This document shows positions 5,255 to 28,516 of a stretch of 64,000 nucleotides of DNA, in pieces. Both the position numbers and the translations under genes were made by a program. The DNA comes from Aliidongia dinghuensis (GTDB taxonomy: Bacteria > Pseudomonadota > Alphaproteobacteria > ATCC43930 > CGMCC-115725): positions 186,001 to 250,000 of the forward strand of contig NZ_BMJQ01000012.1 in the NCBI RefSeq assembly GCF_014643535.1, given 5' to 3'. The notes beneath the pieces were generated by a model. It was not told the origin of the DNA. It did no database searches and saw nothing but the letters and a program-made list of their open reading frames with translations. The stretch's first letter is position 1; every line of letters starts with the position of its first letter.

Positions 5255-6322
5255 GTGATCAGGAAGACAAGCATCTATACGAAGCGCCTCTCCGACGCCG
5301 AGCGCGCGATGTTGCTCGACGCAGTCTCCGGAATTATTTATCCGGCGGGCAATTATCGGAAGTACTTGGAGGAGATCGCGGCAGCCAGACGCCGGGTTTC
5401 CGGCATCTTCTCCGACCTCATCGCGCGCGATGACCTGAGCCGCTCTTACCCACATTACGTGGGTGCGATCAAGATCGAGAACCTGCCGGTCGACGCGAAT
5501 CCGCCGATGCCTCCAACCCAAGGTGGTGGCCTCAAGTGGATCGAGAAGCCGAGCTACATTTCCGAGAACGTGCTCGTCCTCGTCGCGTCACTCTTCGGTC
5601 ATCCCTATTCGATGTTCTGCGAGGGCCGCGGGCTCGTGAACAATCTCGTGCCGACCCGCACGACCTCGACCGAGCTGACCGGCCTCGGTGCCGCGTCTGA
5701 TCTGCGCTTCCACATCGAGAATGCGGCGCTCCGCTTCCTCACCGGCTATGATTGCTCGCCGAAGGCCCTGTTCCTGACCGGCGTCCGGCAGGACGTGACG
5801 CCGCCCTTCACGCGGCTTAGTGATGCCCGGCCGGCGCTCGCCCTGCTGGGGCCAGAGGATCGCAAGGCGCTCGCCACCGCCTCCTACCGGCTGCGCCTGC
5901 CCTATCGCTGGCGCGGTTTCCGCGATGGCTACGACGAGCTGATCACCGCACGCGTGCCGCTTATCCGCGCGACGCCGGACGGTCTCCTGGTCAATGCGGT
6001 GCTCTACGGCGACATGATCGCCGATTGCGGCACCGCGGCGGGCGAGCGAGCGGTCAGGAATTTCGAGGCGGCGCTTGAAGAGGTGGCGCTGGATGAGGTC
6101 GTCCGGCCGGGCGAACTGCTGTGCATCGACAATCGCGTGACGCTCCACGCCCGCACGCCGTTCAAGGCGAGCTTCGACGACGAGGGGCGGGCCTATCGTT
6201 GGGCGCAGCGCGTGTTCGTGACCGAGAGACTCGAGAATTTCCGGCGCTGGAACGAGGTCGACGACAATGTCTTCGCGCCGACTTTCGCAGGCGCCCAGCG
6301 CGACCTCCAGCAGGTCGGATGA
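5255..6322 (+). CDS. Fe(II)/2-oxoglutarate oxygenase, clavaminate-synthase-like (amino-acid hydroxylase type)
   Basis: A 355-residue TauD/TfdA-superfamily oxygenase starting at GTG, with GGAGA seven bases upstream. The metal site is H153-x-E155 (segment LRFHIENAA) plus a distal H298 in VTLHARTPF, followed by Arg residues that would hold 2-oxoglutarate (RAYRWAQR). The HxE variant with Glu, and the sequence after it (FLTGYDCSPKALFLTGVRQD), are typical of clavaminate synthase, AsnO, VioC and free-lysine or -arginine hydroxylases rather than taurine dioxygenase. Beta- or gamma-hydroxylation of a free basic amino acid is therefore the best guess. The exporter gene begins seven bases after its stop, implying the product or a by-product is exported. 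Confidence 0.8.
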   Translation: MIRKTSIYTKRLSDAERAMLLDAVSGIIYPAGNYRKYLEEIAAARRRVSGIFSDLIARDDLSRSYPHYVGAIKIENLPVDANPPMPPTQGGGLKWIEKPSYISENVLVLVASLFGHPYSMFCEGRGLVNNLVPTRTTSTELTGLGAASDLRFHIENAALRFLTGYDCSPKALFLTGVRQDVTPPFTRLSDARPALALLGPEDRKALATASYRLRLPYRWRGFRDGYDELITARVPLIRATPDGLLVNAVLYGDMIADCGTAAGERAVRNFEAALEEVALDEVVRPGELLCIDNRVTLHARTPFKASFDDEGRAYRWAQRVFVTERLENFRRWNEVDDNVFAPTFAGAQRDLQQVG

Positions 6323-7118: not shown

Positions 7119-7907
7119 TCAGCGCTGGCTGCCGTATTTCTCCATGATGCGGTCGATCGTGCCGTCGGCACGCACTTGTTCGATCGCGGCATTGACGGCG
7201 GCCATCGTCGCGGCGCTTCCGGCGCCCTTGGCGATGGCGAGATAGTTGGGGTCCTCGATGATCGGCACCGGCAGAATGGTGAACGCCGCCGGGTCGAGGC
7301 CGGCCCCTTGGACGGCCAGTCGGAGGCCCGCGGCGCCGGAGCTGATCACCGCCGCGTCGATCCGATCGCGCAGCAGCTTGCCGACCCGCGCCACGGCGTC
7401 GGTATCGTCTTCGACGGTGAAGGTCTTGACCGCACTGCTCCAGTCCCCGCCATAGGCAACGCCGCGAAGGGCACCCACGGTCTTGCCGGCCAGATCGTGG
7501 ACCGAGGTGAACGGAAACTCGTGGCCCATCTTCACCACGACGACGATGCGGTCGTAGACCAGCGGCTCGGAGAAGTCGAACAGCTGCTCGCGCTCCGGCG
7601 TCTTGGAAAAATGGGTAATGATGCCATGTCCGGCCCGCGCGTCCTCGACGGCGCGAGGCCAGGGCTCCAGCTTGACATTGACCTGAAATCCGGCGCGCGA
7701 CAGGACTTCGGTCGCCGCGTCGACCGCGTAGCCGCGCGGCGTCTCGCCATCCTGCCAGGCCTTGGGCGGCAAGCTGTCGGAACCGAGCAGCGTCACGGGC
7801 TCGCCCGCGACCGCGGCAGTCCCGAGCAAGCTGGCGCCGAGCAAGCCGGCCCCGAGCAGAATGCACAATGACCACAGGACGATGCCGACCGACGAAAAAA
7901 TGCGCAT
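7119..7907 (-). CDS. Periplasmic solute-binding protein, family 3 (amino-acid type)
   Basis: A 262-residue SBP_bac_3 protein. ATG at 7907 has GGAGG six bases upstream and begins a signal peptide (MRIFSSVGIVLWSLCILLGAG...) with likely cleavage near AAVAGEP. The mature part shows GYAVDAATEVL, LEPWPRAVEDARAGHGIITHFSKTPER and FSEPLVYDRIVVVV, all characteristic of the family. No ABC permease or ATPase is adjacent, so it is an orphan binding protein. It could work with a transporter elsewhere or feed a sensory system. It converges on the TSUP gene with about 20 bases between the stops. Confidence 0.85.
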   Translation of the reverse strand: MRIFSSVGIVLWSLCILLGAGLLGASLLGTAAVAGEPVTLLGSDSLPPKAWQDGETPRGYAVDAATEVLSRAGFQVNVKLEPWPRAVEDARAGHGIITHFSKTPEREQLFDFSEPLVYDRIVVVVKMGHEFPFTSVHDLAGKTVGALRGVAYGGDWSSAVKTFTVEDDTDAVARVGKLLRDRIDAAVISSGAAGLRLAVQGAGLDPAAFTILPVPIIEDPNYLAIAKGAGSAATMAAVNAAIEQVRADGTIDRIMEKYGSQR

Positions 7908-8167
7908 CGTGCGCCTCCGTGCCACCCGGTTCAGCATATCAGCTTATGCGTGTACCGCCATGCGCCATGAGGCGGCGCGGCATCAGGCGCGATGATCTGC
8001 GCTAGGATCCGCTCAAGGCCCGCCTCGAAGAAAATCCTCGTGCCGTCGTGGTTCCGCGTGGAGGATTGGCGGCGTCGCGCCGTAGAATCGGGCGCATCTC
8101 CTCCCGTGCTGCGGCGTTCTCGCGCGGCGCTCCCCGCCCACGACCAGCTTGATCGAGACCGAAGCCG

Positions 8168-10417
8168 ATGATGCAGCTCTTGTTCGGCGTCACGCTCTTC
8201 ACGGGCGCGGCACTTCTCTTCTGGATCCAGCTCGTCGTGTCGAAGATGCTGCTGCCGGTACTGGGCGGCAGTGCAGCGGTCTGGAACACCTGCATGGTGT
8301 TCTTCCAGGTCGCCCTGCTGCTGGGCTACCTCTATGCGCACGGCAGCATCCGCCGGCTCAGCGGCCGATTCATGGTCTTCCTCCATCCGGTCCTGCTCTT
8401 GGCCGCCGCTTCGTTGCTGCCGGTCTCCGTCGCCGGGCTCGGCGACCCGCCTGATGATGCCAACCCGATCCCGTGGCTGCTGCGCGCGCTCGTCATCACG
8501 GTGGGGCCGCCGTTCGTGGTGCTGGCCGGGACGGCGCCGCTGCTGCAGGCCTGGTTCGCGCGGCTCGGCACACGGTCGTCGCGCGATCCCTACTTCCTTT
8601 ATGCCGCGAGCAATCTCGGCAGCCTCGTGGCCCTCGCGTCATATCCGACGCTCATCGAGCCGCATCTCTCTCTGGTCGATCAGAACCGCGGCTGGACCGC
8701 AGCCTATCTGCTGTTGACCGTGCTCACCGCGCTCTCAGCCGGTGTCGTCTGGCACAAGGAACGTGTCCAGCCCGCCGCCGGCGTTAAGCCGACCGACGTC
8801 GACTCGACCGTAACCGAGGCCGCGCCCGGGACGGTGCCGGCACTCCTCCGGCTGCGCTGGATCGTGCTTGCCTTCGTGCCGTCGAGCCTGCTCCTGGGCG
8901 TCACGACGCATCTCACGACCGACGTCGCGGCGGCGCCGCTGTTCTGGGTCATTCCGCTGATGCTCTATCTTTTGAGCTTCGTGCTGGCGTTTCAGCGGGT
9001 CGTGGCACTGCCGGAGTGGCTGACGAGCCAGGCGCAGGCGCTGTTGATGGTGGCGCTTGCGGTGACGCTCCTCACCCAGCAGAGCGGCGAGGCCATGCCG
9101 CTCTTCGTCCTGCATCTCGCGGCCTTCTTCGTGACGGCATTGCTCTGTCATCAGGAAGTGGCCCGTCTGCGGCCACCGGTCGCGCAATTGACCGAATTCT
9201 ATCTCCTGGTGTCGGTCGGCGGGGCGCTCGGCGGCATCTTCAATGCGCTTCTGGCGCCCGTCGTCTTCACCGGCGTCGCCGAATATCCGCTGGTATTGGT
9301 GCTGGCCTGCCTGCTGCGGCCTGGTCTCCGGCTGCGGCGTGACTGGCTCTGGCAGGCGGCGGGCGACGCGCTGCTGCCGGTGGCGCTGCTGCTGTTCGTG
9401 GTGGGCGTGCCGCGCTACACCGGGCTCGACTGGACGGACGGCAACAGCACGATAACGCTCATTCTCGTGATCCTGCTGGCGCTCGTCGTCTTCGGCTTTG
9501 CGGCGCGGCCGATCCGCTTCGGCCTCGGCATCGCGGCGCTGCTCCTCGGAAGCACGCTCGGCGCGGACAGCGATCAGCTGCTGAAGCACGTGCGCAATTT
9601 CTACGGCGTGCTCAAGGTCGTGGCGCAAGAGCAGCCGCCGCTGCACGTGCTGTTCCACGGCACCACGACGCACGGCGCCCAGAGCCTGGACCCGGCCCGC
9701 CGCCTGCAGCCCTTGAGCTACTATCATCCGGACGGGCCGCTGGGTCAGCTGTTCGATACGGTCGGCGGCAGCTCGGTCACCGCGAATGTCGCGGTCGTGG
9801 GCCTCGGCACCGGTACCGTCGCCTGCTACGCCCATACGGGCGAACATTGGACCTTCTTCGAGATCAACCCGGCGGTGGTTTCGATCGCCCGCGACCCGTC
9901 GCTCTTCACGTTCGTCAAGGATTGTCCCGCCGCGCCCGCGATCGTGCTGGGTGATGCGCGCCGGTCGCTGGCGGCGGCGCCCGACGGCGCCTACGGCATG
10001 ATCATCCTCGACGCCTTCACCTCGGACGCGATCCCGATCCATCTGATGACGCGCGAGGCGGTGCGGCTCTATCTCGCCAAGCTCAGGCCGGGCGGGCTCA
10101 TCGTGTTCCATATCTCCAACCGCTATCTCGATCTGGCGCCGGTGCTGGCCGACATCGCGGGCTCGCTCGGCCTCGCCGCGCGCCACTGGTCCGACGAGGA
10201 CAGCACCGACGACGCCGACGACGACGCGGCGTCCGCTTCGTCCGGCGAGGCCTCGACGGACGAGAAGGACGCGTCCGAATGGGTCGTCGTCGCGCGGGCG
10301 CCGCAGGACCTGGCCGCCATCGCGGACGACAATCGGTGGCAGGCGCTCAAGCCGGCCGCCGGCCGGCGCGTCTGGACCGACGATTACTCCGACCTAATCG
10401 GAGCGCTCGCCCATTGA
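8168..10417 (+). CDS. Integral-membrane protein fused to a spermidine-synthase-like domain
   Basis: A 749-residue two-part protein. The first ~440 residues form many membrane helices (FTGAALLFWIQLVVSKMLLPVLGGSAAVWNTCMVFFQ is the usual start of this fusion). The C-terminal ~270 residues are an aminopropyltransferase-like Rossmann domain with the nucleotide loop VVGLGTGTVACYA, acidic FFEINPAVV, GDARRSL and the DAFTSDAIPIHLMTREA segment. A strongly acidic/Ser insertion (residues ~677-700, many Asp and Ser) is unusual. Related fusions are often annotated as polyamine synthases, but whether the transferase part makes polyamines is untested. No speD or other polyamine gene is near. Confidence 0.8.
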   Translation: MMQLLFGVTLFTGAALLFWIQLVVSKMLLPVLGGSAAVWNTCMVFFQVALLLGYLYAHGSIRRLSGRFMVFLHPVLLLAAASLLPVSVAGLGDPPDDANPIPWLLRALVITVGPPFVVLAGTAPLLQAWFARLGTRSSRDPYFLYAASNLGSLVALASYPTLIEPHLSLVDQNRGWTAAYLLLTVLTALSAGVVWHKERVQPAAGVKPTDVDSTVTEAAPGTVPALLRLRWIVLAFVPSSLLLGVTTHLTTDVAAAPLFWVIPLMLYLLSFVLAFQRVVALPEWLTSQAQALLMVALAVTLLTQQSGEAMPLFVLHLAAFFVTALLCHQEVARLRPPVAQLTEFYLLVSVGGALGGIFNALLAPVVFTGVAEYPLVLVLACLLRPGLRLRRDWLWQAAGDALLPVALLLFVVGVPRYTGLDWTDGNSTITLILVILLALVVFGFAARPIRFGLGIAALLLGSTLGADSDQLLKHVRNFYGVLKVVAQEQPPLHVLFHGTTTHGAQSLDPARRLQPLSYYHPDGPLGQLFDTVGGSSVTANVAVVGLGTGTVACYAHTGEHWTFFEINPAVVSIARDPSLFTFVKDCPAAPAIVLGDARRSLAAAPDGAYGMIILDAFTSDAIPIHLMTREAVRLYLAKLRPGGLIVFHISNRYLDLAPVLADIAGSLGLAARHWSDEDSTDDADDDAASASSGEASTDEKDASEWVVVARAPQDLAAIADDNRWQALKPAAGRRVWTDDYSDLIGALAH

Positions 10418-20215: not shown

Positions 20216-21010
20216 CTATCCCGCGAGGCAGGTGAGCCCGCCGTCGACCGGCAGGCAGACGCCGGTGATGTAGCGTGCCTCGTCGGAGGCGAGGAAGAGT
20301 GCCGCGCGCGCCACGTCCCAGGCGTCGCCCATGCGGCCCATCGGGCTCCTGGCGTTGCGCGCGGCGATCATCGCCTCGGTATCGGCATAGCTGCCGGCGA
20401 TCTGGCGATGGATGAGCGGCGTGTCCATGAGCCCGGGCATGATCGCGTTCACCCGGATATTGTCCTTGGCGTAACGGATGGCGAGCGCGCGGGTCAGGTG
20501 GTTCAAGCCGGCCTTGGACGCCGAATAGGAATAATAATGGTAGTCGTTGATATGGATTGCGGCGGTCGACGAGATGTTGACGATGGCGCCGCCGCCCTGC
20601 TGCAGCATCGCCGGCACGACCGCCTTGGACGCCAGCATCGCGCCGGTCAGGTTGATGTCCATCACCCGCTGCCAGCGTTCCTTGGTGATGTCCTCGAGCT
20701 CGCCGATGTCGGTGATGCCGACGTTGTTGTGCAGCACGTCGATCCGGCCGAAGCGGGCGAGCGTCTCGGCGACGATCGCCTGGATCTGGGCCTCGTCGGT
20801 GACGTCGCCGGCGAGCGCCAGCGCCTCGCCGCCCTCGCTCGCGACGATCTTGGCGGTTTCCGCTGCCGCCTCCGCCCGCACGTCGACTGCGACCAGCTTC
20901 GCTCCTTCGCGGGCATAGAGCACGGCGGCGGCCTTGCCGTTGCCCCAGCCCGGGCCGGACGAGCCGGCGCCGAGCACCAGGGCGACCTTGTCGCGCATCC
21001 GCAAAGCCAT
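20216..21010 (-). CDS. Short-chain dehydrogenase/reductase
   Basis: 264 residues with a modified glycine-rich cofactor loop (LVLGAGSSGPGWGNGKAAAV), the NNVG segment, catalytic Ser (NISSTAA), YSYSASKAG (Tyr and Lys of YxxxK) and the C-terminal ITGVCLPVDGGLTC. It should oxidise or reduce an alcohol/ketone with NAD(P). The insertion in the glycine loop is less common than TGxxxGxG. It is the last gene of the IclR-led ThDP operon, 86 bases after the acetolactate-synthase-like gene, so it probably acts on that enzyme's hydroxyketone or aldehyde product. Confidence 0.85.
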   Translation of the reverse strand: MALRMRDKVALVLGAGSSGPGWGNGKAAAVLYAREGAKLVAVDVRAEAAAETAKIVASEGGEALALAGDVTDEAQIQAIVAETLARFGRIDVLHNNVGITDIGELEDITKERWQRVMDINLTGAMLASKAVVPAMLQQGGGAIVNISSTAAIHINDYHYYSYSASKAGLNHLTRALAIRYAKDNIRVNAIMPGLMDTPLIHRQIAGSYADTEAMIAARNARSPMGRMGDAWDVARAALFLASDEARYITGVCLPVDGGLTCLAG

Positions 21011-22839: not shown

Positions 22840-23817
22840 CTAGCTTCTCCCGACCATGTCCCGAACGGCCTCGACGATCGCCGGGGCCGTGACGCGCACC
22901 GCATTCTCGAGCGGCGGCGCATAGGCGATGAGCGTGCGCGGCGCGCCCAGGCGGCGGACTGGCGCCTTGAGCCGCTGCCCGAGGTGCTCCGCGATGGTCG
23001 CCGCGACCTCGGCGCCGAAGCCCGCAACCGCGACGGCCTCGTGGGCGACCAGCAGGCGGCCGGTCTTCTCCACGCTCTCGAGCACGCGCGCCTTGTCCCA
23101 GGGCCAGAGCGTGCGCAGGTCGATGAGCTCGACCTCGATGCCCTCACCCGCGAGCTTGCGCGCCGCCTCGACCGCGACATGGACCTGGGCCGACCAGCTG
23201 ACGATCGTCACGTCCCGGCCGGGCCGGATCACCCGCGCCTCGCCGAACGGCACCAGGTGCTCGCCGTCCGGCACCTCGTCCGTCAGGCCCCACAGGTTCT
23301 TATGCTCCATGAACACGACCGGGTCGTCGGACCGGATCGCGGTCTTCAGCAACCCCTTGACGTCGGCCGGGGTCGACGGGCAGGCGACGACCAGGCCCGG
23401 CACATGGGCGTACCAGGCCTCGAGCGACTGGGAATGCTGGGCGGCGGACGAGCGCCACATGCCGATCGGCTCGCGCACGACCAGCGGCACGCGGGTCTGG
23501 CCGCCGAACATGAAGCGCGCCTTGGCGGCCTGGTTCACGAGTTCGTCCATGGCGCAGAGCGCGAAGTCGGCAAAGCGCATCTCGACGACCGGCCGTGTGC
23601 CCATCATCGCGGCTCCGACCGCTGCCCCCAGGATCGCCGCCTCCGAGATCGGCGCGTCCGAGATGCGCTCCGGCCCGAATTCCTCGACCAGGCCCCGGTA
23701 CTGGCCGAACACGCCGCCGCGGCCCAGGTCCTCGCCGACGGCCCAGACCAGGGGGTCGCGGCGCATCTCCTCGGCAAGCGCCGCGCGGCCGGCCTCCATA
23801 TAGGTCGCAGTCGCCAT
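22840..23817 (-). CDS. 2-oxoacid/acetoin dehydrogenase E1 beta subunit
   Basis: 325 residues. Typical E1 beta landmarks are AVGEDLGRGGVFGQYRGL, RISDAPISEAAILGAAVGAAMMGTRPVVEMRFADF, GLVVACPSTPADVKGLL and LIDLRTLWPWD. The ATG overlaps the stop of the E1 alpha gene in TGATG, so the subunits are made together. E1 decarboxylates a 2-oxoacid or cleaves acetoin on ThDP and passes the acyl group to an E2 lipoyl enzyme. No E2 or E3 gene is present in this operon. Confidence 0.9.
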   Translation of the reverse strand: MATATYMEAGRAALAEEMRRDPLVWAVGEDLGRGGVFGQYRGLVEEFGPERISDAPISEAAILGAAVGAAMMGTRPVVEMRFADFALCAMDELVNQAAKARFMFGGQTRVPLVVREPIGMWRSSAAQHSQSLEAWYAHVPGLVVACPSTPADVKGLLKTAIRSDDPVVFMEHKNLWGLTDEVPDGEHLVPFGEARVIRPGRDVTIVSWSAQVHVAVEAARKLAGEGIEVELIDLRTLWPWDKARVLESVEKTGRLLVAHEAVAVAGFGAEVAATIAEHLGQRLKAPVRRLGAPRTLIAYAPPLENAVRVTAPAIVEAVRDMVGRS

Positions 23818-24821
23818 CAGAACGCCTCCCGGCGGGGATCGCCCGCATCCTGCACGTCGGTGAAGGCCGTCTCGGCCGGCGGGAACGGGGCGGCGAGCGC
23901 CTTGCCGTAGGCCGCACGCATCTCCTCGATCGCGGCCCTCGCGTCGGCGGCGAGTTCTTCGCTCAGCACGCCGGCGGCGCCCAGGATCTCGGCGGCGCGC
24001 CCGATCGGCTCGCCGCGGCGGCGGGCGGCGACCTCGTCGGCCGAGCGATATGTGGCGGCATCGGCGCCGGTATGGCCGGTCAGGCGATATGTCCGGGCAT
24101 GGAGGAAGCGTGGGCCCTCGCCGGCACGGATCGCGCGGACCGCCTCTGCCGTCGCCGCGTCGACCGCCAGCACGTCGTTGCCGTCGAGCTCGAATGTGGG
24201 AAGCCCGAGCGCCCGGGCGCGGGCACCGGCGCCGGCACCTGCGGTCATCGTGTGGGTCCGGGTCGTGGCAGCGAAGCCGTTGTCCTCGCACACGAACAGC
24301 ACCGGCAGCTTGAACACGGCGGCCCAGTTCAACCCCTCGAGGAACGGCCCGCGATTGATGGCGCCGTCGCCGAACAGGCAGCAGACGACATGCGGCTCGC
24401 GCTTCAGCTTGATCGCATGGGCGGCACCGGCGGCGATCACGATATTGGCCGCGACAACGCCGTTGGCACCCAGCATGCCGACCGAGAAGTCGGCGATATG
24501 CATGGAGCCGCCCTTGCCGCCGCAATTGCCGCCGACCCGGCCCAGGAGCTCGCACATCATCGCGGTGCTGTCGGCACCCTTGCCCAGCGTGTGGCCATGG
24601 CCGCGATGGGTCGACAGCAGGATGTCGCTCGGCGCCAGGTTCGCGGTGACGCCGGCCGCCACCGCCTCCTGCCCGATCGAGGGATGGATGGCGCCGAGGA
24701 CGACCTTGTCGTCCAGGCCGCGCAGCGCCTGCTCCTCGAAGGCGCGGATGCGCCACATCATGCGGTGATGGGCGCGCAGGCGTTTGATGTCGAGATTGTC
24801 GCCGGGCGACGGACCGGTCAT
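23817..24821 (-). CDS. 2-oxoacid/acetoin dehydrogenase E1 alpha subunit
   Basis: 334 residues with the E1 alpha signatures HPSIGQEAVAAGV, STHRGHGHTLGKGAD, GGKGGSMHIADFSVGMLGANGVVAANI and the ThDP loop LFGDGAINRGPFLEGLNWAAVFKLPVLFVCEDN. The GSMHI and G-x-GANGVV features match acetoin/pyruvate-type enzymes rather than the branched-chain type. Its start shares four bases with the stop of the IclR-type gene (ATGA), so it is the second gene of that operon. The partner subunit follows directly. Confidence 0.9.
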   Translation of the reverse strand: MTGPSPGDNLDIKRLRAHHRMMWRIRAFEEQALRGLDDKVVLGAIHPSIGQEAVAAGVTANLAPSDILLSTHRGHGHTLGKGADSTAMMCELLGRVGGNCGGKGGSMHIADFSVGMLGANGVVAANIVIAAGAAHAIKLKREPHVVCCLFGDGAINRGPFLEGLNWAAVFKLPVLFVCEDNGFAATTRTHTMTAGAGAGARARALGLPTFELDGNDVLAVDAATAEAVRAIRAGEGPRFLHARTYRLTGHTGADAATYRSADEVAARRRGEPIGRAAEILGAAGVLSEELAADARAAIEEMRAAYGKALAAPFPPAETAFTDVQDAGDPRREAF

Positions 24822-25639
24822 CGGAGCTGATCTCCCATCGAGGGGCTATGGACGAGACTGCCGGAAGTGGCGTCGAGGGCGAGCGGCGGCAGGCGGCGTT
24901 CGAGTTCCTCCGCCTCCGCGTGCAGCAGCGCCACAAGTTCGGCGCGCCGGTCGGGCGTCATGCGGTCGCGGATCGCGGCGAGGCTGAGCGCGAACAGCGG
25001 CCGGCCGTCGGCGTCGTGCACGGCGACCGCGACGGCGTTCATCGCCGGCACGATCAGCCCGTCGTTGAAGGCGTGGCCGTCGGCCCGGGTACGTTCGACC
25101 AGCCGCAGGATCGCGTCGGCGGTGAAGCCGCTGAAATCCTTAAGCCAGTCGGCGTTGCGCACCAGGATCAGGCGGATTTCCGCATCCGGCAATGCTGCAA
25201 GCAAGGCCAGGCTGCCGGCGCCGACGCCCAAGGGCCGACGGTCGCCGACGTCGAGCGTGAGCGTGCGGATCGGAAAGGCGCCGACCGCCCGGCCGATGCA
25301 GATGGCGGCAAGGCCCTCGCGCACGGAGGCAAAGCTCGTGTCGCCGGTCGCGGCGGCGAGACGGGCGAGCGCGCCGTCGGCCAGCTGCGCGACATCCTGC
25401 TGCAGTGCTGCGCGGCCCAAGGTGGCGACGACGGCGCCCAGGCGATAATGTTTGGTCGGCAGGTCCTGGCAGGCGAAGCCGACATCGGTCAGCGCGGCCA
25501 GCAGCCGATGGGTCGTCGCCGGGCCGAATCCGGTCGCCTTCGCGATGTCGGTCAGGCTCAAGCCGCCGGCGCCCTGGCCGGCCAGCACGCGCAGCAGTGC
25601 CGCGATCCGATCGACGGTCTTGACGGCCGTTTCCGGCAC
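24818..25639 (-). CDS. IclR-family transcriptional regulator
   Basis: 273 residues: an N-terminal winged helix (LSLTDIAKATGFGPATTHRLLAALTDVGFA) and a C-terminal ligand-binding GAF-like domain (PLGVGAGSLALLAALPD, MNAVAVAVHDADGRPLFALSLA). It is the first gene of the operon continuing with E1 alpha, E1 beta, the ThDP enzyme and the SDR, and is overlapped by E1 alpha. It therefore most likely controls its own operon, and perhaps the divergent unknown gene, through the inverted repeat at 25684-25722. The effector is probably the pathway substrate. Confidence 0.85.
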   Translation of the reverse strand: MPETAVKTVDRIAALLRVLAGQGAGGLSLTDIAKATGFGPATTHRLLAALTDVGFACQDLPTKHYRLGAVVATLGRAALQQDVAQLADGALARLAAATGDTSFASVREGLAAICIGRAVGAFPIRTLTLDVGDRRPLGVGAGSLALLAALPDAEIRLILVRNADWLKDFSGFTADAILRLVERTRADGHAFNDGLIVPAMNAVAVAVHDADGRPLFALSLAAIRDRMTPDRRAELVALLHAEAEELERRLPPLALDATSGSLVHSPSMGDQLR

Positions 25640-25683: not shown

Positions 25684-25722
25684 TTTCCAAAATCGCCTAT
25701 TATCTAGGTCGAATTTTGGAAA
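25684..25722. promoter_or_regulatory. Inverted repeat, candidate IclR operator in a divergent promoter
   Basis: TTTCCAAAAT at 25684-25693 and ATTTTGGAAA at 25713-25722 are perfect 10-base inverted arms 19 bases apart, centred between the IclR-type gene and the divergent gene at 25749. The half-site TTTCCA/TGGAAA matches the sort of half-site bound by IclR-family proteins. Its position would let one regulator control both directions. Confidence 0.6.
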
Positions 25723-25748: not shown

Positions 25749-26552
25749 ATGGTCGATGTCGTTGTCGCACCCACCGTGACCAAGCTCGGACCGGAGGCGT
25801 CGGGCGCGGTGCTGGTGACCGGATCGCACGGCGGGCTCTATCCGGGCCGGCTCGCGGTTGCGGCAGGCGTGCGCGCGGCGATCTTTCATGACGCGGGCCT
25901 GGGGCGCGACGAGGCCGGCGTCGGCTCGCTCACCCTGCTCGATGGGCTCGGCATCGCCGCAGCGGCCGTATCGCACCTGAGCGCGCGCATCGGCGACACC
26001 GACGACATGCTGGCGCGCGGCCGGATCAGCCGCGCGAATGGCGCGGCCCAAGCGCTGGGCGTTGTGGCCGGCATGGCGTGTGTCGCCGCCGCGGACCTGC
26101 TGAAGGCGGCGGCGCACTCTCGCCACACGATCGCGAAGGGCAGCGAGGTACGCCTCGTGCTGGTCCGGCCGCGGCGGCCGATCGTGCTGATCGATTCCGC
26201 GGCCATGGTCGATCCGGTCGCCGACGTGGGTGCCATCGTCGTGACCGGCTCGCACGGCGGGCTTGTCGGCGGCGTGCCCGCCATGGCGCTCCGGGTCGAG
26301 GGTTTCGCCGGCATCTACAACGATGCCGGCATCGGCATCGACGAGGCTGGTGTCGGCCGGCTGCCGGCGCTCGACGCCCGCGGCATCGTCGGCCTGACGG
26401 TCTCGGCATCCTCCGCTCGGATCGGCGAGGCGCGCTCGACCTTCGAGGATGGCGTCATCTCGCGCGCCAACCGCACCGCTGCGGCGTTGGGTGCCGCGCC
26501 GGGCCTGCCGCTCAAGCCGCTGCTCGAAGCCTGGGCCGGTGGTCACAGTTAA
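25749..26552 (+). CDS. Unknown protein built from two copies of one domain
   Basis: 267 residues; ATG at 25749 is preceded by GGGGA. The sequence repeats itself: VTGSHGGL at 23-30 and 165-172; DAG-x-G-x-DEAGVG at 48-59 and 192-203; SARIG at 78-82 and 222-226; ISRAN at 93-97 and 237-241. Each half looks like an alpha/beta domain with conserved Ser-His-Gly-Gly and Asp-Glu-Ala-Gly signatures that could form an active site. No signal peptide is present. It diverges from the IclR/ThDP-enzyme operon and shares its promoter region, so it probably takes part in the same pathway. I do not recognise a known function. Confidence 0.75.
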   Translation: MVDVVVAPTVTKLGPEASGAVLVTGSHGGLYPGRLAVAAGVRAAIFHDAGLGRDEAGVGSLTLLDGLGIAAAAVSHLSARIGDTDDMLARGRISRANGAAQALGVVAGMACVAAADLLKAAAHSRHTIAKGSEVRLVLVRPRRPIVLIDSAAMVDPVADVGAIVVTGSHGGLVGGVPAMALRVEGFAGIYNDAGIGIDEAGVGRLPALDARGIVGLTVSASSARIGEARSTFEDGVISRANRTAAALGAAPGLPLKPLLEAWAGGHS

Positions 26553-26555
26553 TAA

Positions 26556-26615
26556 TTCGATATTTCTCGAAAAGTCGTTGACTCATCTGGCGCGCGATGA
26601 TATTTCGATAATCGA
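26556..26615 (+). promoter_or_regulatory. ars promoter with two candidate ArsR operators
   Basis: A -35-like TTGACT (26578-26583) and a TATTTC (26601-26606) are 17 bases apart. An inverted repeat TTCGA-N6-TCGAA (26556-26571) lies just before the -35. A second, TCGAT-A-ATCGA (26605-26615), overlaps the -10 and the likely transcription start. This is where an ArsR dimer would have to sit to block transcription. Confidence 0.55.
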
Positions 26616-26635
26616 TGGAATATGGAAATCAGCTG

Positions 26636-26992
26636 ATGAATGCGAAGCAGGTGATTGCGGCGCTCGGCGCCTTGGCCCATGACACACGCCTCGCCGCGTT
26701 CCGGCTGTTGGTCGAGCGTGGGCCCGATGGCCTGCCGGCGGGCATGCTCGCCGACGCGCTGGGCGTGCCGCCCTCGTCGCTCACCTTCCACCTGCAGCAG
26801 CTCGTCCATGCCGGGCTCATCACGCAGCGACGGTCGGGGCGCCAGCTGATCTATGCGACCGATTTCGCGGTCATGAACGGCCTCATGGCCTATTTGACCG
26901 AGAATTGCTGCGGCAACGCCGACACTTCGACCCCCGTCTGCTGCCCGCCCGCCGCCGCGGCGGCCGACCCTACCGACAGGAGATCCGCATGA
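26636..26992 (+). CDS. arsR: ArsR, arsenic-responsive repressor
   Basis: 118 residues. ATG 26636 is preferred over the one at 26615, which lies in an operator and lacks a ribosome site, while GGAAA precedes 26636. The winged helix is clear (LADALGVPPSSLTFHLQQLVHAGLI). The E. coli-type CVC sensing motif is absent; instead C91-C92 and C102-C103 stand near the C-terminus, matching the Acidithiobacillus-type ArsR in which a vicinal pair plus a later Cys bind As(III). It should repress the arsR-arsI-aqpS-arsC operon until trivalent arsenicals bind. The stop overlaps the arsI start (ATGA). Confidence 0.85.
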   Translation: MNAKQVIAALGALAHDTRLAAFRLLVERGPDGLPAGMLADALGVPPSSLTFHLQQLVHAGLITQRRSGRQLIYATDFAVMNGLMAYLTENCCGNADTSTPVCCPPAAAAADPTDRRSA

Positions 26993-27447
26993 AGCGCCTG
27001 CACGTCCATCTGGGCGTCGAGAATCTCGACAGCTCGATCCGGTTCTACACCGCGCTGTTCGCAGCGGAGCCGACCGTGCGCAAGCCCGACTATGCGAAAT
27101 GGCTGCTCGATGATCCGCGCGTCAATTTCGCGATCTCCGCGGGCCACGGTGCCGCCGGCATCCAGCATCTCGGCATCCAGGTCGAGGATGCCGACGAACT
27201 GACCGAAGTCTACGGCCGGCTGAAGCAGGCGGACGGGCCGGTGCTCGAGGAAGGCGCCACGGTCTGCTGCTACGCCCGGTCGGAAAAATCCTGGATCTCC
27301 GATCCGCAGGGGCTGGCATGGGAGACGTTCCTGACGCACGGCGACAGCACGGTCTACGGCGGCGGCCTGCCGGCGCCGGGCGGCAAGACCGACACGGCCG
27401 CGCCGCGGGCGCAGACCGCGTGCTGCGGTCCGGCCTCCGCGGCATGA
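26989..27447 (+). CDS. arsI: ArsI, C-As bond lyase (organoarsenical dioxygenase)
   Basis: 152 residues of the extradiol/glyoxalase fold, with AGGAG eight bases before the ATG. Metal ligands are visible as His5, His60 and Glu112 (2-His-1-carboxylate Fe(II) site), and the vicinal pair Cys93-Cys94 (TVCCYARSEKSW) would bind methylarsenite. This is the ArsI pattern. The enzyme cleaves the carbon-arsenic bond of trivalent organoarsenicals (MAs(III), aromatic arsenicals) to As(III). A second Cys pair (TACCGP) sits in the C-terminal tail. Cadmium-induced CadI proteins look alike, but the operon settles the role. Confidence 0.85.
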   Translation: MKRLHVHLGVENLDSSIRFYTALFAAEPTVRKPDYAKWLLDDPRVNFAISAGHGAAGIQHLGIQVEDADELTEVYGRLKQADGPVLEEGATVCCYARSEKSWISDPQGLAWETFLTHGDSTVYGGGLPAPGGKTDTAAPRAQTACCGPASAA

Positions 27448-28112
27448 TCCACCGGGCTGCAGTCGTCGAATTCATCGCCACCGGCTTCCTGCTGGTCGCG
27501 ATCGTCGGCTCGGGCATCATGGCTGAACGGCTGAGCGCCGGCAGCGTCGGGCTCGCCCTGCTGGCGAATGCGCTCGCGACCGGCGGGGCGCTTGCGGCAC
27601 TCATCCTGGCGTTCGGGCCGGCATCGGGCGCACATATGAACCCGATCGTGACACTCGCGGCCGCGGCGACGGCCGACCTCGACTGGCGGGCCGTGCCGGC
27701 CTATCTGCTGGCGCAAGTGGCCGGTGCCGTTGGCGGCGTCTGGCTCGCCCATGTCATGTTCGACCTGCCCGTCTGGCAATTCTCGACCCATGGGCGGACC
27801 GGCACCGGGCAATGGGTCGCGGAAGCCGTCGCAACGTTCGGGCTGCTGATGGTGATCTGGGGTTGTCGCGCCCATCGCGCACCGGTCACGGCCATCGCCG
27901 TGGCCGGCTATATCACGGGCGCCTATTGGTTCACCGCGTCGACGGCCTTCGCCAATCCGGCCGTGACCTTCGCCCGCATGCTGACCGACAGCTTCGCCGG
28001 GATCCGTCCCGCCGACGCGCCCGGCTTTCTCGCCGGCCAGACAGCCGGGCTGCTGCTGGCTTTGCCGCTGCTGCGCGGCGGCTGGCTCGAGCCTCGAAGG
28101 ACCGAACCATGA
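27444..28112 (+). CDS. aqpS: AqpS-type aquaglyceroporin for arsenite
   Basis: 222 residues, six membrane helices. The first pore motif is N66-P67-I68 (HMNPIVTL) instead of NPA; the second is N171-P172-A173 followed by Val174 where most aquaporins have the filter Arg. The same Arg-to-Val change marks Sinorhizobium meliloti AqpS, which replaces ArsB and lets As(III) flow out down its gradient. Start and stop overlap arsI and arsC by four bases each. With no ArsB, ACR3 or ArsP gene in the operon, this is the only arsenic exit route seen. Confidence 0.85.
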   Translation: MIHRAAVVEFIATGFLLVAIVGSGIMAERLSAGSVGLALLANALATGGALAALILAFGPASGAHMNPIVTLAAAATADLDWRAVPAYLLAQVAGAVGGVWLAHVMFDLPVWQFSTHGRTGTGQWVAEAVATFGLLMVIWGCRAHRAPVTAIAVAGYITGAYWFTASTAFANPAVTFARMLTDSFAGIRPADAPGFLAGQTAGLLLALPLLRGGWLEPRRTEP

Positions 28113-28516
28113 GCGTCACGATCTATCACAATCCCGACTGCGGGACCTCGCGCAACACGCTCGCCATGATCCGCAGCACGGGCGTTGAGCCGCGCGTCAT
28201 CGAATACCTGAAGACACCGCCGAGCCGGGATGAGATCCGGCAGCTGGTCCAGGCCATGGGCGTGCCGCTCGTGACCGTCATGCGCCGTAAGGGCACGCCG
28301 TTCGACGAACTCGGGTTGGGCGCCGACGGGCTCCCGGAGGACGCACTGCTCGACGCCATCGCCGCCCATCCGATCCTGCTCAACCGGCCGATCGTCGCGA
28401 CGCCGCTGGGCGTGAAGCTGTGCCGGCCGTCGGAGCTGGTGTTCGACTTGCTCGACGGGCCGCGTCCCGCCGTCTTCGTGAAGGAAGACGGCGAACGCGT
28501 CGTGCCCTCCGCTTAG
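28109..28516 (+). CDS. arsC: ArsC, glutaredoxin-linked arsenate reductase
   Basis: 135 residues of the ArsC/Spx fold. Catalytic Cys11 is in HNPDCGTSRNT, and the arsenate-binding arginines are in the PLVTVMRRKGTPFDELG and ILLNRPIV regions. It reduces As(V) to As(III), which AqpS can release. It is the last gene of the operon (4-base overlap with aqpS). Its stop overlaps the stop of the convergent dodecin gene, leaving no room for a terminator between them. Confidence 0.9.
   Translation: MSVTIYHNPDCGTSRNTLAMIRSTGVEPRVIEYLKTPPSRDEIRQLVQAMGVPLVTVMRRKGTPFDELGLGADGLPEDALLDAIAAHPILLNRPIVATPLGVKLCRPSELVFDLLDGPRPAVFVKEDGERVVPSA

Follow-up and report, generated by a model that had tools for sequence, protein, structure and literature searches.

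A two-domain gene facing a ThDP-enzyme operon

The window examined here is a stretch of 64,000 nucleotides from Aliidongia dinghuensis. The gene of interest, D, starts with ATG and has an open reading frame of 267 residues. The initial annotation had described its product as two homologous halves, encoded by a gene that diverges from an IclR-led ThDP-enzyme operon and shares its promoter. The locus fits this description. The IclR gene, both E1 genes and the ThDP-enzyme gene are all found on the opposite strand, and the divergent starts of IclR and D are 109 bp apart, with the control region between them shared. The features are as follows (positions are those of the window; L and G numbers refer to loci and genomes).

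20216-21010, minus strand: SDR oxidoreductase, downstream of the ThDP gene and in the same place in L001 and L003
21097-22839, minus strand: acetolactate-synthase-like ThDP enzyme, abutting E1-beta, with three ThDP-enzyme domains
22840-23817, minus strand: E1-beta, overlapping E1-alpha by 1 nt; family assigned by homology to L070:5936-6928
23817-24821, minus strand: E1-alpha (dehydrogenase E1 component), overlapping IclR by 4 nt
24818-25639, minus strand: IclR-family regulator, divergent from D
25684-25722, no strand: perfect 10-bp inverted repeat TTTCCAAAAT-19-ATTTTGGAAA in the 109-bp IclR/D gap
25749-26552, plus strand: gene D, a 267-residue protein of two homologous DUF1805-like halves
25749-26123, plus strand: N-half of D, residues 1-125, with VTGSHGGL, DAGLGRDEAGVG, SARIG and ISRAN
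26160-26549, plus strand: C-half of D, residues 138-267, with IDSA, VTGSHGGL, NDAGIGIDEAGVG, SARIG and ISRAN

D is a real, constrained gene under purifying selection, because changes at the third codon position dominate between D and its closest relative, L001 (78% protein identity; 46/31/116 differences at the three codon positions), and dN/dS is ~0.2. The SDR gene was considered as a universal partner of D and rejected, only three loci besides the window having fairly close relatives of it. Just after D, on the same strand at 26615-28516, lie ORFs that by eye are ArsR-like, VOC, aquaporin-like and arsenate-reductase-like and read like an arsenic resistance group, which is absent beside D in L001.

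The inverted repeat between IclR and D, with its 10-bp arms and 19-bp spacer, is unique in the window, and 100 shuffles produced none as good. A comparable repeat occupies the same place in L001 (11-nt arms, 91% complementary, 23-nt spacer). Immediately upstream of IclR, loci L078, L082, L087, L092 and L095 have the palindrome TTCCGNNNNNCGGAA, and L082 has a second copy just upstream of E1-alpha. We regard the repeat at 25684-25722 and these palindromes as putative IclR operators.

D is a duplicated DUF1805-like domain

The D protein consists of one ~120-residue domain present twice; the copies are 49% identical across the 106 residues that align. When residues 1-130 were locally aligned with residues 131-267 the score was 209, against a mean of 39.2 (s.d. 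7.1, maximum 78) for 2000 pairs of shuffled halves, a z of ~24 that confirms the homology of the halves. The landmarks sit where the initial annotation had placed them: VTGSHGGL at residues 23-30 and 165-172, DAGxGxDEAGVG at 48-59 and 192-203, SARIG at 78-82 and 222-226, and ISRAN at 93-97 and 237-241. The Ser-His-Gly-Gly and Asp-Glu-Ala-Gly signatures are thus present in both halves, as had been claimed.

The same two-domain layout was seen in 64/64 two-domain relatives compared, for which the median identity between N- and C-domains is 41%. A search with a half profile found two copies in each complete two-domain relative and one copy in four short proteins; these single-domain relatives (L004 from Rubrivivax, L098, L099 and L103) are ~131-151 residues long. 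A tree built from 133 halves separates every N-half from the C-halves (moderate support at the split, 0.71), except for four divergent C-halves that do not join the others (L027, L028, L096 and L097). The duplication therefore appears ancient, and the simplest reading is that one ancient duplication and fusion gave rise to the two-domain family.

The predicted structures carry this likeness to the level of the fold. In the full-length model (mean pLDDT 79.5, from an alignment of five sequences only) strands and helices follow one another in the same way in both halves. Modelled on its own from nine half sequences, the C-half reached pLDDT 78.7 and pTM 0.77. The top solved match was the same for both models: TA1206 of Thermoplasma acidophilum (PDB 1qw2), the solved member of DUF1805 (Pfam PF08827), a family with another match in Bacillus subtilis. 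The N-half region of the whole model matched it with Z 7.7 (80 aligned, 3.1 Å; next row 5.7) and the separate C-half with Z 7.0 (81 aligned, 3.4 Å; next row 4.9), each match spanning ~80 of 102 residues. These values stand ~2 Z units above the next row, yet below Z 8, and Foldseek placed 1qw2 first for both models with weak E-values of 0.21 and 0.27. The repeated strand/helix series and the common best match uphold the expectation of one fold in both halves. This analysis thus establishes both the duplication and the similar predicted fold of the halves.

In sequence, 21 of 22 D-family members match the Pfam DUF1805 profile at E up to 1, mainly through the C-terminal part of the half. Because D itself scores 21.4 bits, below the gathering cut-off of 29.5, and one of ten relatives scanned passes it (32.5 bits), we call D DUF1805-like and not a certified DUF1805 member. 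Two further features set the families apart. TA1206 has one domain of ~100 residues per chain, whereas D has two of ~120 residues in one chain, and the GSHGG and DAGxGxD segments distinguish D from DUF1805. Sequence searches of solved structures with the D protein and with a 22-member profile gave no convincing relative, NCBIfam gave no useful match, and the literature on DUF1805, YunC, TA1206 and the D gene cassette yielded incidental mentions or none, with no assigned DUF1805 function found.

Two candidate relatives of the halves were rejected. Matches of the half profile to RecA were summed weak repeats in fused constructs, and the Y-family DNA polymerase profile (IMS, PF00817) was matched by relatives over ~30 of its 148 positions, with no IMS match in D. 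In relatives of D, a stretch of ~30 residues in the C-terminal part of each half, G-x-IS-xx-N-xx-A-xx-LG-xx-xGM, does resemble part of Y-family DNA polymerases, and it is partly the same stretch that matches DUF1805. The likeness extends to sequence and structure (up to 41% identity over ~30 columns) and reflects either chance or an old shared motif.

Conserved residues mark two putative pockets

Conservation was counted over the 64 two-domain and four single-domain proteins. Among polar positions it is highest at S26/S168, H27/H169, D48/D192, R80/R224 and N97/N241, all five conserved in N-halves, C-halves and single-domain forms, together with D83/E227, where the residue is Asp or Glu; many glycines are conserved as well. 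The H27 position is Tyr in 7% of N-halves. A further conserved D-S/T point lies at the start of each half: it is D149-S150 in the C-half of D, and its N-half counterpart in D is P8-T9, where 81% of N-halves have Asp. The aligned sequences indicate that the halves have diverged from each other at two positions, 86/230 (Asp in most N-halves, Ser in C-halves) and 60/204 (Gly or Ser in N-halves, Arg in C-halves).

In the predicted model, the Ser, His, Asp and Arg positions (26, 27, 48, 80 and their counterparts) come after successive strands; it is at such strand ends that folds of this kind usually form a pocket. Some of the loops bearing conserved residues have the lowest model confidence, the DAGxG loops being among the least certain, and the pocket geometry is accordingly a putative one.

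D co-occurs with the ThDP and E1 genes

If D belongs to the neighbouring operon's pathway, it should accompany those genes in other genomes. Among 387 alphaproteobacterial genomes, D is found in 39 of the 40 with an orthologue of the ThDP enzyme and in 41 of the 41 with an orthologue of E1-alpha, in agreement with the pathway idea of the initial annotation (Fisher p ~1e-40 and ~1e-44, respectively, shared ancestry not being corrected for). Both orthologue sets are well separated: the 40 ThDP genomes score 691 bits or more, with the next best match at 375, and the best E1-alpha match per genome is at least 346 bits, with the next genome's best at 289 or less. D is present in 53 of the 387 genomes, 14 of which have no ThDP orthologue and 12 no E1-alpha orthologue. 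The sole ThDP genome without D, G109, also has no E1-alpha orthologue. Seventeen families have both D and a ThDP orthologue, and no family has a ThDP orthologue without D; in family f73 the two occur in different genomes.

Up to ~8 kb was read on either side of D, and at 32 of the 44 loci laid out at least one partner gene lies within that stretch. The arrangement varies. D diverges from an IclR-E1-alpha-E1-beta-ThDP row in the window, L001, L082, L087, L092 and L095, and it directly precedes the ThDP gene in L063, L068, L070, L072, L077 and L093, overlapping it by 4 nt in L093. In L078 a single strand carries IclR, E1-alpha, E1-beta, TRAP, ThDP and D, the last two ~5 bp apart. D is accompanied by E1 only in L074, L081 and L090, and by ThDP only in L064, L067, L069 and L093. 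In G356, a three-contig genome, D is apart from both partners and 408 kb from the ThDP gene, and in the draft genomes G102 and G200 it is far from both, on separate contigs. Because the arrangement varies and D is unlinked in some genomes, linkage alone cannot explain the association. TRAP genes recur near D loci.

L089 and L091 have, close to D, a single ThDP gene with an E1-alpha/beta pair on either side; the doubling suggests a duplicated specificity for two related substrates.

D occurs in other catabolic clusters

The ThDP pathway is not the only setting of the family: relatives from haloarchaea, Rhodococcus and Rhizobium are found in different catabolic clusters. In five of five haloarchaeal plasmids read (L025, L030, L105, L106 and L107), a VOC or unnamed gene is followed by D, then by the genes of a RuBisCO-like protein and of a four-carbon-acid-sugar kinase; four of the five rows also include an SDR, an aldolase and TRAP genes, and PGDH_C is nearby in some. 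Rhodococcus has D followed by an OB-fold gene, an AMP-binding gene and a thiolase, and the Rhodococcus and Rhizobium loci both have CoA-ester genes. The single-domain gene of Rubrivivax comes after a gene for a TctC carboxylate-binding protein. In family f67 (L065, L075, L076 and L088) D is beside ABC transporter, SDR or PhyH genes; because its neighbours there are without the ThDP cassette, D probably serves a different substrate. The thread common to the haloarchaeal, Rhodococcus and Rubrivivax contexts is carboxylate uptake together with the breakdown of oxo or hydroxy acids or acyl compounds.

The haloarchaeal row may encode a pathway of the apionate type, in which D would add a step. Because haloarchaeal D adjoins the RuBisCO-like, kinase and PGDH_C genes and 3-oxo-isoapionate is an acetolactate analogue, the alphaproteobacterial ThDP enzyme was considered as a candidate for handling this compound as well. 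ApnO presumably belongs to PGDH_C. The idea found no support in the window's group, where PGDH_C does not track D: PGDH_C (PF16896) occurs in 6 of the 387 genomes, two of them with D. One of these two is the window's own genome, which has PGDH_C on another contig (C21). The apiose pathway literature found consisted of background or unrelated papers.

Proposed role of D

We predict, with a probability of roughly 55%, that D is a two-pocket enzyme in an undescribed ThDP-dependent carboxylate catabolic pathway. D would be a soluble and presumably cytoplasmic enzyme of two fused DUF1805-like alpha/beta domains, in which the conserved polar set of each domain (Asp/Ser, Ser-His, Asp, Arg) would form a substrate pocket. 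A small oxo or hydroxy carboxylic acid would enter the cell, through a TRAP carrier in a number of species, and would then be processed, under the control of the IclR regulator, by the E1-alpha/beta pair together with the acetolactate-synthase-like enzyme, with D likely acting on the oxo or hydroxy acid before or after the ThDP-dependent C-C cleavage. Isomerisation, or hydrolysis such as lactone opening, is a doubtful first guess at the reaction.

In favor of an enzyme we count the co-occurrence, the tight coupling in L093 and L078, the conserved polar residues and the recurrent TRAP/TctC carboxylate carriers. The co-occurrence and the shared control region likewise support the suggestion, made in the initial annotation, that D is an unrecognised step of the pathway. 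Against an enzyme stand its presence in loci without E1 or ThDP genes and the fact that no catalytic DUF1805 relative was found. Given such loci, the chemistry of the family is not specific to these partners. The conserved residues might just as well hold a ligand that undergoes no reaction. The main rival is a regulatory or ligand-binding role.

In its regulatory form, which we consider unlikely, D would be a non-catalytic, ligand-sensing subunit that serves the acetolactate-synthase-like enzyme or the E1 pair in the way IlvN/IlvH serves acetolactate synthase. Like IlvN/IlvH, D is a small gene repeatedly beside an acetolactate-synthase-like gene, and IlvH too has a two-domain layout. Moreover, D overlaps the ThDP gene in L093 and tracks it genome by genome, and the recurrent neighbours of D loci include no gene recognised as a small regulatory subunit. 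However, the ACT family is absent from the Pfam matches of D up to E 1, and the haloarchaeal relatives have RuBisCO-like and acid-sugar kinase genes as neighbours, the stretch read there containing no ThDP gene. An Aminobacter relative, whose N terminus has a signal-like twin-Arg stretch, suggests export away from such a partner. About as improbable is a protein of general catabolic use that binds metabolites or handles cofactors, co-regulated and with no dedicated reaction. The very different clusters that contain D, with ThDP/E1 genes, with RuBisCO-like and kinase genes in haloarchaea and with CoA-ester genes in Rhodococcus and Rhizobium, would suit such a protein, but a specific step better explains why polar residues are conserved in both halves and why D, in alphaproteobacteria, is a near-obligate companion of one gene set. 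That D is a linked passenger sharing its promoter by chance is highly implausible: D is divergent and outside the operon in the window, but its presence in all of the E1-alpha genomes, unlinked ones included, already contradicts this idea, and its dN/dS of ~0.2 also speaks against it.

The E1 pair belongs to the general E1 family, as do AcoA/AcoB of acetoin dehydrogenase, which it may specifically resemble. Unlike the AcoA/AcoB system, D loci have no E2/E3 gene among their identified recurrent neighbours, and the window-type E1 pair is partnered by an acetolactate-synthase-like enzyme and D.

Where genes co-occur as strictly as these do, here across 17 alphaproteobacterial families, they normally form a pathway, and this one is unnamed in the family libraries searched. 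With D as a pathway enzyme, it is conceivable, though somewhat short of an even chance, that D is a new enzyme class, with the first activity assigned to a DUF1805-like fold, that D, E1-alpha/beta and the ThDP enzyme form an undescribed pathway, and that haloarchaea reuse a related enzyme with the RuBisCO-like protein and acid-sugar kinase. If true, the pathway would be present in ~1 in 10 of the alphaproteobacterial genomes sampled. The co-occurrence also gives a functional context to a DUF1805-like fold; the solved member has carried the label "unknown function" since 2004. The four core genes, the putative IclR operator and, often, a carboxylate carrier make a compact, testable target.

Distribution and unusual family members

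Relatives L001-L004 came from a scan of GTDB contigs, and D relatives are present in 18 of 39 same-family genomes, counting the window's own. In a 299-genome sample of the phylum, which is partly alphaproteobacterial and whose counts are not comparable with those of the 387-genome set, one genome outside the class Alphaproteobacteria (G595) has a relative, a single-domain one. A PHROGs search with D gave no match, and viral contigs held no D relatives. Thirteen plasmids carry relatives, including those of haloarchaea, Rhodococcus, Rhizobium, Aminobacter and Ponticoccus, and where annotated these are always "hypothetical protein"; querying plasmids with distant relatives brought up no record beyond these 13.

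In the relative on Aminobacter plasmid pAA02 (L027, CDS 7794-8747), the twin-Arg signal-like stretch (NRRIFLGSSALL...) is held in the upstream open frame, and its sequence suggests an exported form of the D family. Finally, contig C14 of the window's own genome (G000) has at 5490-5600 a 51-residue ORF (TATVAAESARIGDGESTLTQGVILAVN; L104) that resembles part of the C-half and is probably a decayed second copy of D.
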